Positions 35,452-64,000 of a stretch of DNA of 64,000 bases are shown here, one piece after another. Under the pieces are notes generated by a model. The model was not told the DNA's origin. It was given only the letters and a program-made list of their open reading frames with translations, and searched no databases. Both the position numbers and the translations under genes were made by a program. The DNA comes from an uncultured Pseudomonadales bacterium (lineage in GTDB: Bacteria; Pseudomonadota; Gammaproteobacteria; Pseudomonadales; Azotimanducaceae), in the NCBI GenBank assembly GCA_958296025.1, contig OY282430.1, positions 2,046,001 through 2,110,000 of the forward strand, given 5' to 3'. Within the stretch, counting starts at the first letter, position 1; the number at the start of each line of letters is the position of its first letter.

Positions 35452-35922
35452 CTAGTGCATGTGGGACTGAATATAGTTCTCGATGCCCACCTTGTCGATC
35501 AGGCCCAGCTGGGTCTCCAGCCAATCCACATGCTCCTCCTCGGAATCCAAAATGCTGCGGAACAACTGGCGAGAGACGTAGTCTCCGCAGCCCTCGCAGT
35601 AGGCGATGGCGTCGCGCAGCGTGGGCATGGCCTCCATCTCCAAGGCCAGATCGCACTGCAACATCTCTTCGGTGTGCTGGCCGATGCGCAGGCGGCCGAG
35701 ATCCTGCAGGTTGGGCAAGCCCTCCAGGAACAGGATGCGCTCCATCAGGGCGTCGGCATGCTTCATCTCGTCAACGGACCCCTCACGCTCCTTCTCCGCC
35801 AAGCGGTGGATGCCCCAATCCGCAAACATCTTGGCGTGCAGGAAGTATTGATTGATGGCGGTGAGTTCGTTCTTGAGCACCCGGTTGAGGTGGACGATGA
35901 CTTCGGTTTGCATGGGCTGCAT
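35452..35922 (-). CDS. bfr: bacterioferritin
   Basis: Haem-containing iron storage protein forming 24-mers. MQPMQTEVIVHLNRVLKNELTAINQYFLHAKMF and DEMKHADALMERILFLEGLPNLQDLGRL are diagnostic: Met53 would bind haem, while Glu19, Glu52 and His55 fit the ferroxidase centre. The ATG at 35922 has AAGGAG six bases upstream; the open frame to 35970 is not needed. Length 156 residues. It is divergent from bfd across an AT-rich region with a Fur-like sequence. Confidence 0.97.
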   Translation of the reverse strand: MQPMQTEVIVHLNRVLKNELTAINQYFLHAKMFADWGIHRLAEKEREGSVDEMKHADALMERILFLEGLPNLQDLGRLRIGQHTEEMLQCDLALEMEAMPTLRDAIAYCEGCGDYVSRQLFRSILDSEEEHVDWLETQLGLIDKVGIENYIQSHMH

Positions 35923-36063
35923 GGCTGGCTCCTTAGCGATGGCTGGTGATGAGTTTTGATGATGCGCCAAATGACGCCATGTGTCAAGCGTAACTTATTG
36001 TTTTATAAATGAAAATTCCTATCGGAAGAAAATTGAAGCGGCAACGAAATTTTTGTTGCAATT

Positions 36064-36369: not shown

Positions 36370-37491
36370 TCAATCGTCGGCCACGAATATCTGCCATTTT
36401 CCCGGCCCTGCGCTTCTGCGGACCTTGGCCGTGCGCACCCGCTCCGGGATAAAGCCCGCCTCGGCGAGTTCCTTCCCGAAATCGCACTCCGCGTAATCCA
36501 ACCAGAACAGTTCGTGGTTGTGGTACCGATCCCAAGCCCGCTCCGCCTGCTGCCACGGCGTCTTGTGGGCGAACAGCAGGTCGATGTCCTGATGCACCAC
36601 AATGCCCCCCGGAGCGAGCAGGCGCCGGCTCTCCCGGGCCACCGCCCGGCGGCCATCGCTGGAGATTTCGTGCAGCAGGTTGTGGGAAACCACCAAGTCG
36701 AAGCGCCCGTCGGGAAACGAGGTGCGGGTAGCGTCCATCTGATGGAAATGGACCGGATGGCCTAGGCATTCGGCCCGGGCGAAGGCGTAGCGCAGCATGG
36801 AGGACCCCAAGTCGATGGCGTGGACCTCCGCCTCAGGAAACTCCTCGGCATAAACCACCGAGGCGCCTCCAGCGGAACAGCCCATGTCCAGCACCCGCTT
36901 GGGCATCCAACCGGGCCGATCCTCGGCCAGGAAGTCCAGCACGCTGCCGGCCTTGGATTCCCGAGCCCCAATGCCCTGCCCCATGGAATACAGGCGCCCG
37001 CCCATCTCGTAGTAGGCACCGGCCAGCACATCCCGGCCCTGGGGGTCCTCAGGGACATAGCTGTGCGGCTGCAAGTGGATGCCAACGCCAGTGTAGGCCG
37101 GGTCCGGCTCGAAGTCCGGGTCCAGATGCAGGCCGCCCTTGCGCGTCGGCGCCACCATGCGCCGTTGCGCCTCGGCCTCCAAGCGCACCTGATCCCGATA
37201 GATGGGTTCGGCCACAGCGGTCCACATCAGTTCCTGGGAACTGCGGTTAATGGCCGACCAATAGCGCCAGAAGCGGGACATGGAAAAGGCTTCCAGCGCT
37301 TCGGCGCGATTGGCCGGCGCCGCGCCCTGGGCGGCCGCAAAGGCCGGCACGCCTTCGGTCCGGTAGGCCAGCCCGTTGCCGGAGCGCAGGGGACCGGCGA
37401 CCTGCCGCTTCAGCGCCAGAACGAAGCGCGCCCGGGCGCTGTCCTCCCCGTTCTGCCGGGCCAGCATGTCATGGGTCAGATGATAGACCAT
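36370..37491 (-). CDS. class I SAM-dependent methyltransferase
   Basis: Rossmann-fold methyltransferase of 373 residues. Motif I is VLDMGCSAGGASVVYAEEFP, then EVHAIDLGSSMLRYAFARAE, MDATRTSFPDGRFDLVVSHNLLHEIS and LAPGGIVVHQDIDLLF. About 190 residues precede the methyltransferase fold; they include a helical part and HLQPHSYVPEDPQGRDVLAGAYYEMGG, which I do not recognise as a named domain. The product acceptor is unknown. It is divergent from the selenoprotein gene with about 390 bp between, so a shared control region is possible. Confidence 0.85.
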   Translation of the reverse strand: MVYHLTHDMLARQNGEDSARARFVLALKRQVAGPLRSGNGLAYRTEGVPAFAAAQGAAPANRAEALEAFSMSRFWRYWSAINRSSQELMWTAVAEPIYRDQVRLEAEAQRRMVAPTRKGGLHLDPDFEPDPAYTGVGIHLQPHSYVPEDPQGRDVLAGAYYEMGGRLYSMGQGIGARESKAGSVLDFLAEDRPGWMPKRVLDMGCSAGGASVVYAEEFPEAEVHAIDLGSSMLRYAFARAECLGHPVHFHQMDATRTSFPDGRFDLVVSHNLLHEISSDGRRAVARESRRLLAPGGIVVHQDIDLLFAHKTPWQQAERAWDRYHNHELFWLDYAECDFGKELAEAGFIPERVRTAKVRRSAGPGKWQIFVADD

Positions 37492-37883: not shown

Positions 37884-38825
37884 ATGTCCGAACCCAACGA
37901 TCCGGTCGATTACATCGCCCGCACCCAGAAGCAGTACGCCAACCTGGGCTATCCCCCCTACCGTTGGATCCGCAACGAAGGCCGGCCGCCATTCACCCCG
38001 CTAAAAAAGCCCCTAAGCGAATCCCGTTTAGGGCTGGTGGGGTCCGGCGGCATCTACCGGTCCGGCCAAGTGGCCTTTCATTACCGCGACGACTTCAGCT
38101 TTCGCGTCATCGCCTCGGATACGCCGGTTAGTGAACTGCGGGCCACTCACTTCGCCTATGACCTAGGAGACGCCAGGCGCGACCCCAATAGCGTTTTTCC
38201 CCTGGAAATCCTGCGCAGCCTAGCGGCGCAAGGGCGCATCGGGGAACTTGGGCCGAACGCTTACGCCTTCATGGGGGGCATCTACTCCGCCCGCCTCGTG
38301 CGCGACAAGCTGGCGCCGGCCATCGCCGAGCGCTTGGTCAAGGACGAGGTGGATGCGGCGCTCCTAGTGCCCGTCTGACCGGTCTGCCATCAGTCCGTCG
38401 GATTGATCGCAAGGGAGGTGGAGCGCAGGGGCGTCGCCACCGTCTCCCTTTCCTGCGCCTGGTCGATCACCCAGTCGGTCAGTCCGCCCAGGGCGGTTTT
38501 TCTCGACTTCCCACTGGGCCGCACGGCCGGGCCGCCGGGCGACAAAGCCTTGCAAGGACGCATCTTGCTGGATGCGCTGAACACCTTGGAGACCATGGAG
38601 GAACCTGGCGAAATCCGTGCCCTGCCCCACCGCTGGCCGAACGGCGACGGTTGGAAGGAGCGGGCCAGGCACCCACCGGCCAAGGCGAACGAGGCGTCAA
38701 TCGATGACCGCGTAGGGCGTTCGCCAACGCCTCAGTACCAGATCGAGGAAGACCGAACGGCGGCGCAAAGCCGCTTGGCCGCCGGCGGCTGCCCCGACTG
38801 CGTGTTTTTGGCCGAAGGGGCTTAG
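37884..38825 (+). CDS. GrdB/PrdB-like selenoprotein with in-frame UGA (Sec165)
   Basis: Member of the glycine/sarcosine/betaine/D-proline reductase selenoprotein B-like family. The first part, [22 protein letters not shown] to [11 protein letters not shown], ends at TGA 38376-38378. The same frame continues [55 protein letters not shown] and a CPDC tail at residues 303-306, to TAG 38823-38825. Read through, it is 313 residues with Sec165-Pro-Val-Cys168, a redox motif where homologues have Sec or Cys. The second part has no suitable start codon of its own. A SECIS-like hairpin follows the UGA. Its role in an apparently aerobic bacterium is unknown; a thiol/selenol reductase is plausible. Sec machinery is not in the window. 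Confidence 0.87.
38385..38411 (+). promoter_or_regulatory. candidate bacterial SECIS element
   Basis: Starting seven bases after the UGA, TGCCATCAGTCC pairs with GGATTGATCGCA: eleven of twelve positions pair, counting one G-U, with one C-C mismatch, closing on the loop GUC. The G and U of the loop lie 19-20 bases after the UGA, within the range for SelB-bound bacterial SECIS hairpins. Confidence 0.7.
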
Positions 38826-55842: not shown

Positions 55843-55916
55843 GCCTGTCGGGGTTGGGCTACTCGCTGGCCTCGCCCAGGGTTCGCATCCACTCCAGGCG
55901 CCAGCTGGGGGCGGCG
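55843..55916. repeat. 74-bp direct repeat, copy B (3' end of the giant gene)
   Basis: Second copy of the repeat at 55037-55110. It holds the codons for PSWRLEWMRTLGEASE, the TAG stop and 16 bp downstream. Three substitutions separate the copies, all in the last codons or near them. Confidence 0.85.
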
Positions 55917-58900
55917 CCGGTCCGGGCGAACTCGACGGTGACGGTGAGGGTTAGGGAGGCGGAGGGGCCGTCGGGGTCGGTGGCGGTGACGGTGACGACG
56001 GCGGTTCCCTCCAGGCCGTCCTCGTTGGCCTCCAGAACCAGCCGGCCGTCGGCGACGCGCACGGCGAGCAGGTCCGGGCGGTCGGTTCGGGCTGCGTAGG
56101 CCAGCCGGTCGCCGGCTCCGGCGGGGCCGATGAGGCCGTCCAGGGGGAGCGACGCCCGGTCGCCGTCCGCCGACAGGGCCGGGGCGGGGGGCCGCTCCGT
56201 CGGCCGTGGCGCCGGCTTGAACAGGACCAGGGGCGGGCCGGCCCGGGGGGCCAGGCCGCGGAAGCAGGGGTAAAGGCCGTCCTGCACGTCGCCGCAGACG
56301 CCCTCGGGAACGGCGGGGTCGGCGGCCAGGGACAGGCGGGCGACCCACGGGCCGGCTTGCGCGGCTTGGAGCGGCGGGCCGGCGGTCGCGCCGGCCGGCA
56401 CGGACGCCTGCGTTGCCGACAGTTCGGCGCCCTGCGCCAGCAGCGCCGCGGACAGCGGGAAGGGGGCGCCCTCGGCGACCCGCGCCTCCACCCGCGCCGG
56501 GCCGGGCGCCCAGGGCTCGGCGTCCGTTCGGGCCAGGCGCACGACCAGCGGGAACGGGGCGCCGGGGTTGCCCGAAAGGTTCAGTTCCGCAAGGCCCGCC
56601 ACGCCGGCGAACAGGCCCGCCGGCAGCGATTCGATGCGGTTGCCGCCCAGGTCCAGGCGCACCAGCCCCGGCGTCCCCGCCAGCAGGGCGGGCGCCAGCT
56701 CCGCCAGCCGGTTGCCGCCCAGGTTCAGCGACGACAGCCGGCCCAGGCCGGCGAAGGCCCCCGCCGGCAGCCGCGCCAGCCGGTTGCCGTCCAGGCGCAG
56801 GCGCTCCAGCGCACCCAGGCCGGCGAACAGGCCCTCCGGCAGGGCGGCCAGCCGGTGGTTGCGGTGCAGGTGCAGGACGCGCAGCCCGGAAAGCCCCAAA
56901 AGGTCCTTCGGGCGCAGCGCCGCGATCCCCTTGCGGTGCAGGCTCAGGTAGCCCCGCCCCGCCAACTCCGCAGGCGTCGGCGCCCAGCAGGCCCGCGGCC
57001 CGCGCAGCGCGTCGCGAACCGCCGGCGAGCGGTCGCACACCCCCTCCCGAACCTCCAGCAGCGCCTCGGAGAGGCCCAGCGCCCAGCCCGCGCCCTCCGG
57101 CGGCGGCGCCAGCTCCACCGTCAGGAACTCCCGGGCCGGCTCGATGTCGGCGTCGTCCGGCACCGGGATTTCGACGAGCGCCTCCGTCCCCCCGGCGGCG
57201 AACGCGGCGGTCCCGCTCATGGCCCCCAGGTCGGCGGCGTCCGCGTCGGCGGTGGCCGGGTCCCCGTCGGGCCGGGCGGCCCAGGCGACGGACAGCGCCG
57301 CCGCCGCCGGGCGGCTCAGGGTCAGCGGCAGGCGCAGCACCCCGCCCTCCGGCGCCGAGGCCGAGGGCGCCGCGAACGACAGCACCCGCCCCACCGACGC
57401 CCGGAGGCTCAGCCGGGCGCTCAGGCCGCCGCGGTCCGTCGCCGTCACCGTCACCGTCGCCAGCCCCAGCGCCAGCCCCTCCACCCGCAGCGCGGCGTTG
57501 CCCTCAACCCGCGCCGAGGCCACCGACGGGTCCGACGACTCCGCCCGGTGGGTCAGCGGCCCGTCGTCCGTGAACAGGCCGCCCAGACGCAGCGAAGCCG
57601 ACTCCCCCACGTCCAGGCGCAGGTCCGGGAGCGAACCCACCGCCCGCGGCGGCTGGTTGACCGGCGGCGGCGGCGGCGGCTCCGGATCCGGCGGCGGCGC
57701 GGTGGCGTCCAAAACCCGAACCGGCAGGGACGCCGACACCCCGCCGTAGCCCCCGCCGGACGCCGCGTGGCGCAGCGACGCCGTCTCGCTGACCGCGTCC
57801 GCGTCCGCAACCGCCCGCACCGTCACCGTCTGCGGCGCGTCCCAGCTCGACCCGTCGAACGTCAGCGTCCGCGGCGCCCCGTCCACCTCCACCCCGGCGT
57901 CGTCGCTCGTGACCGCAACCGTCGTCGTCGCCGTCGGCTGCGTCGCCAGGCGCACCGAGTAGCTCCTCGAGGACGCCGCCGGATCGACCCCCGGCGCCGG
58001 CTCCGACAGCGACAGGCCCCCCGCCGGGTCGAACGCGAAGCCCGGCGCGTCGTCGTCCTCCACCGCCACCGCCAAGGCCGGCGCCGACGAAACCCCGGCG
58101 TAGCCCGACACCGCGTGCGTCACCGTGAACGCCCCGTCCTCCGAACCGTCGTCCTCCCCCGCCGAAACCGTCACCGCTTGCCCGACGCCCCAGTCCTCCG
58201 TCGTGAACGTCAGCGTCCGCGACTGCGGCGTCCCGTCGTCGTCGATCGCCAGCGCCGTGCTCGTCGCCGTCGCCGTCACCGTCGTCGTCGCCGTCGGCTG
58301 CGTGTTCAGCCGCACCCGGTAGCTCCCCGAACCGCCCTCGCGCACCGTCAACTGCGGCGGCTCCACCCGCACCCCCGCCGCGCCCGAGTCGCGCACCGCA
58401 ACCGACACCGACGCCGCAACCGAGTCGTAGTCCGCCCCGGACGCCGCGTGCGCGACCGTCGCCGAGCCGTCCGCCACCCCCAGAACCGTCACCGTCCGCG
58501 GCCGGTCCCAGTTCCCCGCCGTGAACGTCAGCGAGGACGGCGAGACCGTCGCCGCCGCCGCGTCCGAACTCGACAGGGACACCGTCACCGGACCCCCGAC
58601 CGGGCGCGTCGCCAAGGCCACCGAGTACGCCGCCGAGGAGCCCTCGTTCACCGCCAGCGACGAGGCGCTGACCGCCAGCGCCGGCGCGTCCCCGTCACGC
58701 ACCTCGAACGAGAACGCCGGCGCGGACACGCCCCCGTAGTCCGACCCCGACGCCGAATGCCCCAGCACCGCCGTCCCGGCCATCGCGTCGTCGTCCCGCA
58801 GCGCCCGAACCCTCACCGCCTTCGGGACGCTCCAGTCCGCCCCGTCGAAGCGCAGGGAGCCCTGGTTCCCGGCCTGGTCCCCGTCCGCGTCCACCGACAC

Positions 58901-61900
58901 GCCCCCCGAGACCGACACCGCCACCCGAACCGGCCCCGTCGGCTCCGTCGCCAGCCGCACCGTGTAGGTCCCCGAAGCGCCCTCCGCCAGCCCCGCAGCC
59001 GTCAGCGCCGAGGCGTCCACCGCCAGCTTCGGCTCGTCGTCGTCAACCGTCGTGGCGACCAGCGACGCCTCCACCCCCTGGTAGTCGCCGCCGGCCGCCG
59101 AATGCTCAATCGTCACCCTCTCGTCCGAGGCGTCGTTGTCCTCGGCCGCCGTCGCCGTCACCGTCTGCGGCGACGACCAGTTCGTCGTCGTGAACGCCAG
59201 CGTCCGCGTGCGCGGCGTCATGTCCGTGTCCACCGACACCGCCCGGTCGCCGCTCTCGACCTCCACCGTCACCGCCGTGGTCGGCTCCGTCGCCAGCCGC
59301 ACCGTGTAGCTCTTCGAGTTCGCCGGGTCCGTGGACAGCTCGTTCAGCGCCAGCGGGCCGGTTTCGTCCACGTTGGTCGTGGACGGATCGGCGTCGATCA
59401 GGATGGCCGGCGCGTCGTCGTCGTCCACCGTCACCGTCACGCCCGGCCGCGCTCCAATGGCCAGCCCGGTGTACTCCGTCGCGCCCATCGCCGTGTGGCC
59501 CAGCGTCAGCATCTCGTTCGTCGCGTCGTCGTCCGCGGCGGCGCTCACCTTCACCTCCCGGTCCGTGCCCCAGTCCGTCGTGGTGAACGTCAGCGTGCTC
59601 TGGTCGCCGGTCGCGTCGCCGTCCGTGTCCACCGTCACCGCGCCCGTCGCGCCGCCCACCGTCACCGTCACGCCGGCGCTCGGCTGCGTGTTCAGGCGCA
59701 CCTTGTAGGCGGCGCTGCCTCCCTCGGCCACCGTCAGCACGGTCGGGCTCACCCGCAGGCTCGGCGTGTCGTCGTCCGTCGCCGTCGCCGCCAGCGCCGC
59801 CGGCGTCACGCCGCCGTAGTCCGCCCCGGTCGGCGTGTGCGTCAGCGTCACGACCTCGTTGGCCGTGTTCTGGTCGTTCGCCGCCCGCACCGTCACCGTC
59901 TGCGCCGCGCTCCAGTTCGTCGCCGTGAACGTCAGCGTCGTCGGGCTGGCCGTGATGCCGTCGCCGGCGCCGGTGATCGTCACCGTCGCGTTGCCGCCCA
60001 CCGGCTGCGTGTCCAGCTTGACCGTGTAGGTCGCGCTGGCGGCCTCCGGCACCGACAGCGTCGCGGCGCTCAGCGTCAGGCCGCGGGGGTCGTCGTCGTT
60101 CAGCGTGAACTCCAGGTCCGCGCTCTCCACGCCGTCGTAGTCCGCGCCGCTCGGGTCGTGGGTCAGATCGACCGTCTCGTCGGCGCCGTCGTCGTCCTCC
60201 CCGGCGCGGATCGTCACCGTCTGCGCCGTGCTCCACGTCGTCGCGTCGAAGGTCAGCGAACTCTGGACGCCCGGCGTCACGCCGTCGGTGTCGTCCACCG
60301 TCACGTCCGCGTCGTCGCTGGAGATCGCCACGGCCACGGCGCCCGTCGGCTGCGTCGCCAGCTTCACCGCGTAGGTCGCGCTGCCGCCTTCGTCCAGGCC
60401 GTTGGTCGTCAGGTCCGTCGCCGCGAAGACCAGCCTGAGCGGGTCGTCGTCCGCCACCTTCGCGCCGAGCGTCGCCGACAGGTCGTCGTAGTCGCCGCCG
60501 CTCGCCGCGTGGGTCAGGTCCAGCGTCTCGTTGCCGCCGTCGTCGTCCTCGACGGCGCGGACGGTCACCGACTGCGCCGCATCCCAGGTCGTCGTCGTGA
60601 ACGTCAGCGCGTTCTGCACGCCGTTCGTGCTGTCGCCGTCGGTGTCGTCGATGGACACCGCGCCCGCGTCGCCGCTGGTGATCGTCACCGTCACGGTCGT
60701 GGTCGGCTCCGTCGCCAGCCGCACCGAGTAGGTCTTCGCGTTCGCCGGATCCGTCTGTTTCTCGTTCAGCGCCAGCGGGCCGGGATCGACCACGTTGGCG
60801 GTCGTCGGGTCCGTGTCGATCACGATGGCCCGCGTGTCGTTGTCGTCCACCGTCACCGCCACGCCCGGCCGCGCCGCCCCGACGGCCAGCCCCGCGTACT
60901 CCGTCGCGCCCGTCGCCGTGTGGCTCAGCGTCAGCGTCTCGTCCGTCCCGTCGTCGTCCTCCGCCGCGCTCACCTTCACCTCCTGGTTCACGCCCCAGTC
61001 CGTCGTGCTGAACGTCAGGGTGGTCTGGTTGCCGGTCGCGTCGTCGTCCGTGTCCACCGTCACCTCGGCGGTCGCGCCGCCCACCGTCACCGTCACGCCG
61101 GCGCTCGGCTGGGTGTTCAGGCGCACCTGGTAGGCGGCGCTGCTCCCCTCGGCCACCGTCAGCATGGTCGGGTCCACGCGCAGGCTCGGCGTGTCGTTGT
61201 CCGCCGCCGTCGCCTCCAGATCGGCCGCCACCCCCACGCCGCCGCCGTAGTCCGCCCCGGTCGGCGTGTGCGTCAGCGTCACGACCTCGTTGGCCGTGTT
61301 CGTGTCCGACGCCGCGCTCACCGTCACGGTCTGCGCCGCGCTCCAGTTCGTCGTCGTGAACCTCAGCGTCGTCGGATTGGCCGTGATGCCGTCGCCGGCG
61401 CCGGTGATCGTGACGGTCACGTTGCCGCCCACCGGCTGCGCGGCCAGCTTGACCGTGTACGTCGCGCTGCCGTTCTCCGGCACCGACAGCGTCGCGGCGC
61501 TCAGCGTCACGGCGCGGGTCTCGTCGTCGTCCACCGCGGCGGCGAGGCTGGCCGTCACGCCGGTGTACTCGCTCGTCGTGGCGGTGCTCGCGGCGTGGGC
61601 GAGGGCCACGGACTCCTCGTTGGTGGCGTTGTCGTCGTCCGCCGCCCGCGCGGTGACGCTCTGCGCCGTCTCCCAGGTGGTGGAGGTGAAGGTCAGGGTG
61701 TTCTGCACGCCGTTGGAGTTGTCGCCGTCGGTGTCGTCGATGGACACGGCGCCCGCGTCGGCGCTCGTCAGCGTCACCGTCACGGTTTGGGTCGGCTCCG
61801 TGGCCAGCCGCACCGAGTAGGTCTTGGCCGCGTTCGAGGCGTGGCCCTCGGTCAGCGTCAGCGGGCCGGCTTCGTCCACGTTGGCCGTGGAGGGGTCGGC

Positions 61901-64000
61901 GTCGATCACCACCGCCGGGGTCTCGTCGTCGTCCACCGCCACGGAGACGCTGCCGATGGCGAGGCCGGCGGGGTAGCCGGCGCCGACGCAGGCCGTGCTG
62001 ACGCTGTGGCTGAGGATGGCGGCGTCGTCCGCCCCGTCGTCGTCCTGGGCGGCGGTGGCCGTCACCGTCTGCGCCGCGTTCCAGTTGCCCGCGGTGAACG
62101 TCAGCGCGGACGGCGAAACGGCCACGTCCGCGTTGCTGCTGGCCACGGCGACGCCGACGCCGCCGGCGCAGCCCGTCGGCGGGCTGTCCGGCGCGACGGT
62201 GTACGTGCCCTGGTTGGCGTTGGCCGTGCCGGGGTGCTCGTCCAGCGACAGGCTGGCCTTGCTGACCGTCACCCCCGGGTTGGCGGTGACCGTGACCGCG
62301 TTCGAGGTCAGCGCGCCGCCGCCCTGGCGGCTGGCGGCGGGCACGCGCACCGCCAGGGTGGGCTGGCCGCGGAAGTCGCCGGTGAAGGCCAGGGTCAGGG
62401 TCGCCGTCGCGCCGCCGGCGGTGACGCCGGAGGCCTGCGCGATGGAGAGGTTGGGGATGGCGCTGACCAGCTCGAACGCGCCGGCGCCGGCGGCCGGCGC
62501 GCCGGCGGCGAAGGCGGCGTTGGTGAGCGACAGCGCCAGCGTGGCGCCGTGCAGGTTCGCCTCGGTGAGCGTCGCCGGGGTGGGCGTGATGGCCACCTCC
62601 ACTTCGTCGTCGGCCACCGTCACCGTGACGCTGCCGATGGCGAGGCTGGCGGGGTAGCCGCCGCCGGCGCAGGCGGTGGCGATGCTGTGGCTCAGGGTGG
62701 CGACGTCGTCGTTGCTGTCCATGTCGTCCTGGGCGGCGGTGACGGTGACCGTCTGCGGCGCGCTCCAGTTCGCGGTGGTGAACGTCAGGGTGGACGGCGA
62801 CACGGCCACGTCCGCGTTGTCGCTGGTCACGGCGACGCCGACGCCGCCCGTGCAGCCGGTGGGGACCGCGTCCAGCGCCGCGGTGTAGGCGCCGCGGTTG
62901 GCGTTGGTCGCGCCCGGGGCCTCGTTCAGCGCCAGGCTGTCGCGGCTGAGCGTCACGCCCGGGTTGGCGGTGACCGGCACGGCACCGGTGGTGAGGTCGC
63001 CGGCGTGCCGGTGGGCGGCGGCCAGCACCTTCACGGCGAGGTCCTGCGTGCCGCCGAAGTCGCCGGTGAAGGCCAGGGTCAGGGTGGCCCGGGTGTCCCC
63101 CTCCGCCACCGTGGAGACGGACGAGACCGAGACGCCGGGAATGGCGGTGACCAGTTCGAAGCTCGCCGCGCCGACGCCGCTCGCGAAGGCGGTGCGCGTC
63201 AGCGCCACGACCGCGGTGGCGCCGTGCAGGTTGGCTTCCGAGAGCGCCGCCGGCGCCGTCCCGTCGAGGGCCGCGACCGGCGCCGCCGCGAAGATGCGCA
63301 GCATGAGGCGGGCCACGTCGCCGTCCTCGTCCGTGCCGGTGACCACGACCACGCTCTCGGCGTCGCGCGTGGGCGTGCCGCAGATCGTGCGCGGCGCCGT
63401 GGCCCAGGAGCCGGCGGTGCCGGACGGGAAGTCGCCGGCCGCGCAGCCGCCGGCGTCCGTGCCGGTGGCGTCGAACTTCAGGCCCTCCGGCAGCCCGGTG
63501 GCGGCGTAGGAGACGGCGCCGTTGCCGCCCGTGGCGGCCGGAATCTGGAACGGCGCGATGGCGGCGTTGGTGGGGTAGCTCCTGGCGGCGACGGCGGGGA
63601 AGGCCGGCTCGGTGTCCGTGGGGGCGACCGCGACCGTGCCGGTGGTGAGGTCGCCGCTGCGGTTGTGGGCGGCGGCCTTGACCTTGACGGCCAAGGTCTG
63701 GATGGCGTTGAAGTCGCCGGTGAACGCCAGCTTCAGGTCGGCCGCGGCGCCGCCGCTGGACGCCCCCGAAACCTGCGAGACGGACACGCCGGGAATCGCG
63801 GTGACCAGCTCGAAGCTCGCCGCGGTGACGCCGCTGACGAACGCGGCGTTGACCAGCCGCACGCCGACCGCGGCGTCGTCCAGGTCGGCTTCGGTGAGCG
63901 GCGAGGGGTAGGTGGACGACAGGACGGCCGCCACGGCCCGGATCGAGAACGACAGCGTGGCGCGGTCCGAGTTCGCCCGGTTCGCGTCCGCGTCGTGGGC
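55859..64000 (-). CDS. giant repeat-built surface protein, 3' part (5' end beyond the window)
   Basis: At least 2713 residues, open to the window edge. N to C: type A modules (LTEANLHGATLALSL, FELVSAIPNLSIAQ, ATLTLAFTGDF) with a putative Ig domain (VSYAATGLPEGLKFDATG, CGTPTRDAE); then 14 modules of about 90-110 residues of the form VPENGSATYTVKLAAQPVGG, LTFTTTNWSAAQTVTV, ANEVVTLTHTPTGADYGG; a proline linker near 57660; an Ig/cadherin-like domain; a Calx-beta-like domain; about six leucine-rich repeats (LPEGLFAGLGALERLRLDGN) at roughly 56570-56970; and a last beta domain ending SWRLEWMRTLGEASE. Many Asp-rich turns suggest calcium binding. Probably a secreted or surface adhesin; no anchor, RTX or autotransporter motif is seen in this part. 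Confidence 0.88.
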   Translation of the reverse strand, partial: AHDADANRANSDRATLSFSIRAVAAVLSSTYPSPLTEADLDDAAVGVRLVNAAFVSGVTAASFELVTAIPGVSVSQVSGASSGGAAADLKLAFTGDFNAIQTLAVKVKAAAHNRSGDLTTGTVAVAPTDTEPAFPAVAARSYPTNAAIAPFQIPAATGGNGAVSYAATGLPEGLKFDATGTDAGGCAAGDFPSGTAGSWATAPRTICGTPTRDAESVVVVTGTDEDGDVARLMLRIFAAAPVAALDGTAPAALSEANLHGATAVVALTRTAFASGVGAASFELVTAIPGVSVSSVSTVAEGDTRATLTLAFTGDFGGTQDLAVKVLAAAHRHAGDLTTGAVPVTANPGVTLSRDSLALNEAPGATNANRGAYTAALDAVPTGCTGGVGVAVTSDNADVAVSPSTLTFTTANWSAPQTVTVTAAQDDMDSNDDVATLSHSIATACAGGGYPASLAIGSVTVTVADDEVEVAITPTPATLTEANLHGATLALSLTNAAFAAGAPAAGAGAFELVSAIPNLSIAQASGVTAGGATATLTLAFTGDFRGQPTLAVRVPAASRQGGGALTSNAVTVTANPGVTVSKASLSLDEHPGTANANQGTYTVAPDSPPTGCAGGVGVAVASSNADVAVSPSALTFTAGNWNAAQTVTATAAQDDDGADDAAILSHSVSTACVGAGYPAGLAIGSVSVAVDDDETPAVVIDADPSTANVDEAGPLTLTEGHASNAAKTYSVRLATEPTQTVTVTLTSADAGAVSIDDTDGDNSNGVQNTLTFTSTTWETAQSVTARAADDDNATNEESVALAHAASTATTSEYTGVTASLAAAVDDDETRAVTLSAATLSVPENGSATYTVKLAAQPVGGNVTVTITGAGDGITANPTTLRFTTTNWSAAQTVTVSAASDTNTANEVVTLTHTPTGADYGGGVGVAADLEATAADNDTPSLRVDPTMLTVAEGSSAAYQVRLNTQPSAGVTVTVGGATAEVTVDTDDDATGNQTTLTFSTTDWGVNQEVKVSAAEDDDGTDETLTLSHTATGATEYAGLAVGAARPGVAVTVDDNDTRAIVIDTDPTTANVVDPGPLALNEKQTDPANAKTYSVRLATEPTTTVTVTITSGDAGAVSIDDTDGDSTNGVQNALTFTTTTWDAAQSVTVRAVEDDDGGNETLDLTHAASGGDYDDLSATLGAKVADDDPLRLVFAATDLTTNGLDEGGSATYAVKLATQPTGAVAVAISSDDADVTVDDTDGVTPGVQSSLTFDATTWSTAQTVTIRAGEDDDGADETVDLTHDPSGADYDGVESADLEFTLNDDDPRGLTLSAATLSVPEAASATYTVKLDTQPVGGNATVTITGAGDGITASPTTLTFTATNWSAAQTVTVRAANDQNTANEVVTLTHTPTGADYGGVTPAALAATATDDDTPSLRVSPTVLTVAEGGSAAYKVRLNTQPSAGVTVTVGGATGAVTVDTDGDATGDQSTLTFTTTDWGTDREVKVSAAADDDATNEMLTLGHTAMGATEYTGLAIGARPGVTVTVDDDDAPAILIDADPSTTNVDETGPLALNELSTDPANSKSYTVRLATEPTTAVTVEVESGDRAVSVDTDMTPRTRTLAFTTTNWSSPQTVTATAAEDNDASDERVTIEHSAAGGDYQGVEASLVATTVDDDEPKLAVDASALTAAGLAEGASGTYTVRLATEPTGPVRVAVSVSGGVSVDADGDQAGNQGSLRFDGADWSVPKAVRVRALRDDDAMAGTAVLGHSASGSDYGGVSAPAFSFEVRDGDAPALAVSASSLAVNEGSSAAYSVALATRPVGGPVTVSLSSSDAAAATVSPSSLTFTAGNWDRPRTVTVLGVADGSATVAHAASGADYDSVAASVSVAVRDSGAAGVRVEPPQLTVREGGSGSYRVRLNTQPTATTTVTATATSTALAIDDDGTPQSRTLTFTTEDWGVGQAVTVSAGEDDGSEDGAFTVTHAVSGYAGVSSAPALAVAVEDDDAPGFAFDPAGGLSLSEPAPGVDPAASSRSYSVRLATQPTATTTVAVTSDDAGVEVDGAPRTLTFDGSSWDAPQTVTVRAVADADAVSETASLRHAASGGGYGGVSASLPVRVLDATAPPPDPEPPPPPPVNQPPRAVGSLPDLRLDVGESASLRLGGLFTDDGPLTHRAESSDPSVASARVEGNAALRVEGLALGLATVTVTATDRGGLSARLSLRASVGRVLSFAAPSASAPEGGVLRLPLTLSRPAAAALSVAWAARPDGDPATADADAADLGAMSGTAAFAAGGTEALVEIPVPDDADIEPAREFLTVELAPPPEGAGWALGLSEALLEVREGVCDRSPAVRDALRGPRACWAPTPAELAGRGYLSLHRKGIAALRPKDLLGLSGLRVLHLHRNHRLAALPEGLFAGLGALERLRLDGNRLARLPAGAFAGLGRLSSLNLGGNRLAELAPALLAGTPGLVRLDLGGNRIESLPAGLFAGVAGLAELNLSGNPGAPFPLVVRLARTDAEPWAPGPARVEARVAEGAPFPLSAALLAQGAELSATQASVPAGATAGPPLQAAQAGPWVARLSLAADPAVPEGVCGDVQDGLYPCFRGLAPRAGPPLVLFKPAPRPTERPPAPALSADGDRASLPLDGLIGPAGAGDRLAYAARTDRPDLLAVRVADGRLVLEANEDGLEGTAVVTVTATDPDGPSASLTLTVTVEFARTGAAPSWRLEWMRTLGEASE
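58700..61525 (-). repeat. about 1.4-kb higher-order duplication inside the giant gene
   Basis: Four successive modules (about 60096-61525) recur in the same order in the next 1.4 kb (about 58700-60095). Pairs are recognisable by LSAATLSVPE, then RVxPTxLTVAEG with LNTQPSAGVTVTVGGAT, then IDxDPxTxNV with ALNE, then a Leu-Asp/Ala-Glu-Gly module. Corresponding segments start about 1.42-1.43 kb apart. Borders are approximate. Confidence 0.7.

Follow-up and report, generated by a model that had tools for sequence, protein, structure and literature searches.

A PrdB-like gene split by ORF finders at an in-frame TGA very probably encodes one complete selenoprotein

The open reading frame at positions 37884–38825 (+) of the window, by which we mean the whole stretch of 64,000 nucleotides analyzed here, is, as judged from its sequence and that of its relatives, one gene whose in-frame TGA very probably encodes selenocysteine (Sec). 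ORF finders split this PrdB-like gene at the TGA, where very probably a single complete Sec-containing protein is made. The best explanation of the data overall is a self-contained selenol/thiol reductase of 313 residues from the PrdB branch, which we consider likely.

The frame runs from ATG 37884 through 164 codons to the TGA at 38376–38378, its sole interruption, and continues for 148 codons to a TAG stop (38823–38825). Translated through the TGA, it reads U-P-V-C at residues 165–168 (38376–38387, +), a redox motif, and ends near a C-terminal C-P-D-C pair at residues 303–306 (38790–38801, +). A first-pass annotation of this DNA had given these coordinates, codon counts, and motifs, all of which are correct in the window sequence, and had proposed a single gene split at an in-frame UGA, which is borne out by conservation of the TGA, by selection that continues past it, and by Sec machinery in the genome. 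It had also held that the downstream half has no usable start. A TTG does lie in frame 3' of the TGA, at 38403, but it is not conserved as a start, since that column reads CTG in 17 of 22 sequences aligned, with the window among the 22. No obvious Shine-Dalgarno sequence precedes ATG 37884.

The TGA is conserved among relatives. The window protein (P0001) matched 81 of 145 genomes searched, its own included, at E ≤ 0.001, and the best 30 matches each contained exactly one in-frame TGA. A sequencing error, allowed for in the first-pass annotation, is countered by these matches, which include a relative at 78% identity in an independent single-contig genome (G005). Scanning 84,980 genomes, each representing one species, contributed 42 loci. 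In the phylum sample, 16 of 398 genomes held a family member, which had a TGA in two (the window genome and G283) and no stop in the other 14. Alignment at column 165, the check proposed at the outset, returned Sec (TGA) or Cys in all 93 distinct relatives read. The clade of the window protein comprises 59 distinct members, with TGA in 58 and Cys in one (L076, Desulfobacteraceae), and those with Sec are spread over Gammaproteobacteria, Acidobacteriota, Actinomycetota, and Chloroflexota. Cys-form relatives from Burkholderiales and other groups carry VPVCPVCHQ or VPNCPVCHQ at the Sec site, and P166, C168, H169, and Q170 are invariant across the 34 rows of alignment A2. In a tree of 93 proteins, 75 with Sec and 18 with Cys, at least three changes between Sec and Cys are needed, given a midpoint root and with long branches flagged. 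The wider family has as many as six members per genome in related genomes and one in the window genome.

Selection was compared on the two sides of the TGA. Against 12 relatives, pN/pS was 0.22–0.45 before the TGA and 0.38–0.54 after it, with synonymous sites near saturation in several comparisons; by this measure, purifying selection is acting on both sides. Standard translation would stop at the TGA, and the in-frame TTG offers a restart; however, a true stop or a sequencing error that left the downstream half as a relic is extremely improbable, because independently assembled genomes and four phyla share the TGA, selection continues beyond it, and no start is conserved. On comparative sequence grounds, the TGA is neither an error nor a chance occurrence. 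Two observations concern more distant relatives: GrdB-sized proteins of about 430 residues with an in-frame TGA and UPIC or UPNC occur in the same Gammaproteobacteria family (L099–L103 and L112), and two paralogues (L095 and L106) read UPLDHQ, such that Sec is retained and the motif's second Cys is replaced by Asp.

The Sec machinery that the first-pass annotation had suggested looking for is present in the window genome. A tRNA-Sec with anticodon tca (76.6 bits), selB (402 bits), selA (511 bits), and selD (263 bits) all scored over their cut-offs; the tRNA-Sec, selB, and selA genes lie side by side at G000:C1:1658954-1662262 and selD at 1654872-1655771, all within about 7.4 kb. Across the 145 genomes, 70 had both selB over cut-off and a PrdB-like gene, 11 the gene only, 10 selB only, and 54 neither, counts that ignore relatedness; many of the 11 gene-only genomes are fragmented or not complete. 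Another 20 genomes were compared by the form that they carry, and selB exceeded the cut-off in 4 of 4 with a Sec form and in 2 of 16 with a Cys form, Cys having been assigned from the lack of a stop in five of the 16. A second match to the tRNA-Sec model was seen at G000:C1:3169704-3169787 (49.5 bits against a cut-off of 47). A Sec-type formate dehydrogenase was considered as the reason for the machinery and set aside; no protein passed the TIGR01553 cut-off, and no TGA fell inside the matches. From the anatomy of the gene and its genome, SelB and Sec-tRNA(UCA) would almost certainly read the UGA of codon 165 as Sec, aided by a hairpin downstream.

Bacterial SECIS elements are described as stem-loops just 3' of the UGA with a G in a small apical loop (PMC1088965). 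A SECIS-like hairpin at 38385–38411 (+) pairs 38389–38396 with 38400–38407 around a GUC loop at 38397–38399; its core, AUCAGUCC-GUC-GGAUUGAU, begins 10 nt after the UGA, and the G that opens the loop lies 18 nt after it. The hairpin fits the published description, with a single-sequence energy that is not unusual and a weaker form in some Actinomycetota. Among 21 distinct sequences, the pairing was retained in 91.8% of cells, versus 21–36% in slid controls, and none of 500 shuffles reached the covariation score, although two of five covariation measures did not beat the shuffles (changes on both sides, 80/500; further pair types, 285/500). RNAalifold recovered seven hairpin pairs with one double change. 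The full set of eight core pairs was present in 39 of 51 Sec rows, and 46 rows had seven or more, in a count that enters genes reached by two tools (e.g., L024 and L054) twice and omits ten reverse-strand loci together with L043, L044, L047, and L088, which the motif pattern missed. Five Actinomycetota Sec rows had five or six of the eight pairs, as few as the Cys rows (7 of 7), two of which (L086 and L087) form strong hairpins of a different shape. Folding energy in the window sequence was ordinary relative to shuffles (z of -1.2, -0.2, and -0.3), the minimum-energy fold of a 71-base piece differs from the proposed hairpin, and conservation of the hairpin overlaps protein-coding constraint. 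An Rfam scan of the window matched no SECIS family; its one hit was an ordinary tRNA.

The first-pass annotation had called the protein GrdB/PrdB-like. The family match holds, and the closer profile is PrdB, not GrdB. The best NCBIfam profile was TIGR04483 (PrdB; E of 2.4e-47, 161.4 bits, residues 34–250), whereas GrdB-type models scored about 50–56 bits, with TIGR01917 at 54.5 bits against a cut-off of 602.2. PF07355 (GRDB) was matched at 38.3 bits, over its gathering score of 22, with the match confined to positions 220–345 of 347, in the C-terminal part of the profile. Eight relatives, three from the clade and five from others, likewise had PrdB as their best profile; none of them passes an NCBIfam cut-off, which suggests that release 20.0 lacks a dedicated model for such proteins.

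An AlphaFold2 prediction from 34 sequences gave one compact alpha/beta protein (mean pLDDT of 91.6, pTM of 0.92). In DSSP of this model, Sec165 lies between a strand (158–162) and a helix (166–181), with U-P-V-C at the helix N terminus. Sec165 is thus predicted to sit inside a single alpha/beta domain, and termination at the TGA would therefore cut that domain. The blocks at 281–310, which include CPDC, have a pLDDT of 92–95. Among the best 50 of 1022 Foldseek matches to the PDB, none reached E ≤ 0.001 (best, 2.3e-3, with a TM of about 0.28), and phmmer found no PDB sequence below E 0.4. An Asp/Glu-racemase-like fold was considered and rejected, a single glutamate racemase chain being found among those 50 matches, at rank 34 with a TM of 0.18. 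The C-terminal CxxC tail is present in 57 of the 58 distinct Sec members of the clade, standing directly before the stop as CPTC in L069, L070, L071, and L073. Since the remaining member (L080) and all 17 distinct Sec paralogues outside the clade are without it, the tail is not needed for the core chemistry.

PrdB-type selenoproteins have been reported in abundance from surface-sea metagenomes since 2005. Among selenoprotein families of the Sargasso Sea, 'proline reductase' (prdB) ranked third in abundance, with 42 genes (PMC1088965); the GOS data yielded 235 PrdB sequences with pfam07355 and UxxC (PMC2398784); and a later survey of marine selenoprotein genes put the share of proline reductase at 6.4% (PMC9402790). 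The window protein is likewise PrdB-related (PF07355), carries UxxC, occurs in Sec and Cys forms, and has a marine source; likened through these published descriptions, it is very probably of the same broad kind. PrdB-type marine selenoproteins were therefore already known, and the window gene is not a new kind. The marine proteins were named after D-proline reductase, and the accessible portions of those papers give no subdivision, CxxC tail, or genome context. In the literature that we searched, with subscription papers mostly outside its reach, we found no function for the stand-alone PrdB-like form.

The known relatives nearest at hand are subunits of amino-acid reductases. In the mechanism proposed for D-proline reductase, a pyruvoyl group of PrdA holds the substrate, Sec of PrdB attacks, a PrdB Cys resolves, and PrdC passes on electrons (PMC3091704). 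The window protein is homologous to clostridial PrdB (TIGR04483) over about 217 residues, including UxxC, and could in principle be the PrdB subunit of a true D-proline reductase, or of another amino-acid reductase, with its partner encoded elsewhere in the genome. PrdB being its best profile speaks for this; however, the 161-bit score is far from the equivalog cut-off of 300, and the protein has 313 residues with a C-terminal CxxC tail, whereas PrdB of C. sticklandii has 242 residues (PMC3091704). Its match to GrdB of glycine reductase (PF07355, TIGR01917) covers the C-terminal part of those profiles, and the N-terminal part of GrdB is missing. No PrdA (TIGR04480) was matched in the window genome and no GrdE-type protein (PF09338) in the window genome and nine other family-bearing genomes, although the control genomes were silent in both cases, making this weak evidence. 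Neighbors, here and at the other loci, were taken as long ORFs selected by script without a gene caller. Ten ORFs within about 6 kb comprise an aldehyde dehydrogenase, bacterioferritin, methyltransferase, SufB, SufC, SufD, SufS, a SufA-type protein, and two without a match. In agreement with the first-pass annotation, no prd or grd gene was named among them in the matches listed, so the gene is not in a prd operon; nor did a recurrent operon partner appear in the contexts compared. A subunit of an amino-acid reductase is accordingly a very unlikely identity for this protein.

The window gene stands alone. Upstream are a methyltransferase gene (36370–37491, −) and a bacterioferritin gene (35452–35970, −; TIGR00754 over cut-off), and downstream is a suf cluster encoding SufB, SufC, SufD-type, SufS, and SufA-type proteins, of which SufB, SufC, and SufS were over a cut-off. 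The largest ORF listed in the window encodes 2691 residues at 55859–63934 (−). The adjoining bacterioferritin and suf genes would fit a protein that is mainly a selenol peroxidase or serves against oxidative stress, using thioredoxin to reduce H2O2 or organic peroxides. A peroxidase activity has been published for GrdB, by a title cited in PMC3091704. Of 38 contexts, which count one gene twice (L054 and L131, on the same contig of G006), 7 have a ferritin-type gene close to the PrdB-like gene. A SelR-domain gene of the methionine sulfoxide reductase type is the divergent neighbor in 8 of 43 contexts, all from Acidobacteriota (L062, L063, L067, L069–L071, L073, and L084; domain checked in L062), 36 bp from the PrdB-like gene by ORF ends. 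However, such neighbors recur only within lineages and not as operons, and suf genes were found near one other locus only, that of the closest relative in G005 (reached as L022, L051, and L109). A cluster that we take to be nqr-like also recurs, in 8 of the 38 contexts, and the PrdB-like gene follows a cytidylyltransferase gene at six loci (five distinct) of one genus (domain checked in L057). The ferritin-type, nqr-like, and cytidylyltransferase neighbors are lineage synteny, not a shared operon. Conservation of the alpha/beta domain, in which many residues outside the redox motif are invariant, further suggests a specific substrate, and many Cys forms adjoin homologues of CoA-transferase III. 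We thus consider a peroxidase role rather unlikely.

The surroundings of the Cys forms raise a different possibility, that the protein acts in organosulfur or acyl-CoA catabolism and cleaves a C-S or similar bond beside a carboxyl group. A CoA-transferase III homologue follows the Cys-form gene on the same strand in all six of L086–L091 (Pfam checked in L087) and does so in one other family of proteobacteria at 8 of 9 loci (L134 and L136–L142, not L135). A four-domain rhodanese is the divergent neighbor in L087 and L089 (Pfam), and rhodanese homologues lie near L086 and the Sec paralogue L095 and not near L088, L090, and L091. In L076, the clade's own Cys member, a CoA-transferase homologue (26% identical to that of L087, E of 1.5e-23) overlaps the gene by four bases if TTG 7974 is the start; a nitroreductase-family gene follows at 25 bases. 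Cleavage of the C-F bond in fluoroacetate has in addition been put forward as an activity of GrdB-type proteins (PMC10838667). Against this, the window gene has no CoA-transferase or rhodanese neighbor, five query proteins including CoA-transferases and the rhodanese having found no match within the window, and the Cys cousins fall mostly in another subfamily. CoA-transferase III genes are, moreover, common in such genomes. Thus, the neighbors of the Cys forms are a lead toward acyl-CoA or organosulfur chemistry, and as an account of the window protein itself this role has a minor chance of being correct.

A self-contained reductase with a built-in relay is favored because no PrdA or GrdE was matched (with controls silent) and because the CxxC tail is present. 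Given the apparent absence of a partner, the protein would work alone, without a pyruvoyl subunit of the PrdA/GrdE type. The selenolate of Sec165, at the helix N terminus, would attack a small substrate at an electrophilic carbon or heteroatom, and Cys168 would resolve the adduct as an Se-S bond. In the electron-transfer order that we propose, the Cys303/Cys306 pair would then take over the oxidation and be reduced in turn by thioredoxin, a donor that we infer by analogy. The CPDC tail would in this way take on, within the same polypeptide, the role proposed for PrdC toward PrdB. The odds that this relay is correct as a whole appear even. By analogy, substrates other than amino acids are plausible, because of the fluoroacetate proposal for GrdB-type proteins and the cited peroxidase activity of GrdB. 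The FarB/FarE fluoroacetate reductase of Synergistota offers a parallel as a set of GrdB relatives proposed to act on a substrate that is not an amino acid; it differs in being anaerobic and in sharing an operon with a GrdE relative, as described in PMC10838667, whereas no such partner was found for the window gene.

In sum, PrdB-type proteins rank among the commonest selenoproteins in reports on surface-sea metagenomes, yet their name comes from an anaerobic reductase of amino acids, the partner subunit of which was not found here. The surface-sea waters surveyed are oxic. We tentatively suggest that these proteins may form a distinct, aerobic, single-gene class of Se-dependent reductase, without a pyruvoyl partner and with a fused C-terminal CxxC as electron carrier. 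In marine and sponge-associated bacteria, such enzymes would cleave C-S, C-N, or C-halogen bonds of a metabolite that is ecologically common. The case also illustrates why annotation splits such genes. Collectively, a bounded clade with a CxxC tail, together with natural Cys versions that occur mostly in genomes without selB over cut-off, one of them in a named isolate (Lacisediminimonas profundi, L087), makes the function of this family directly testable.
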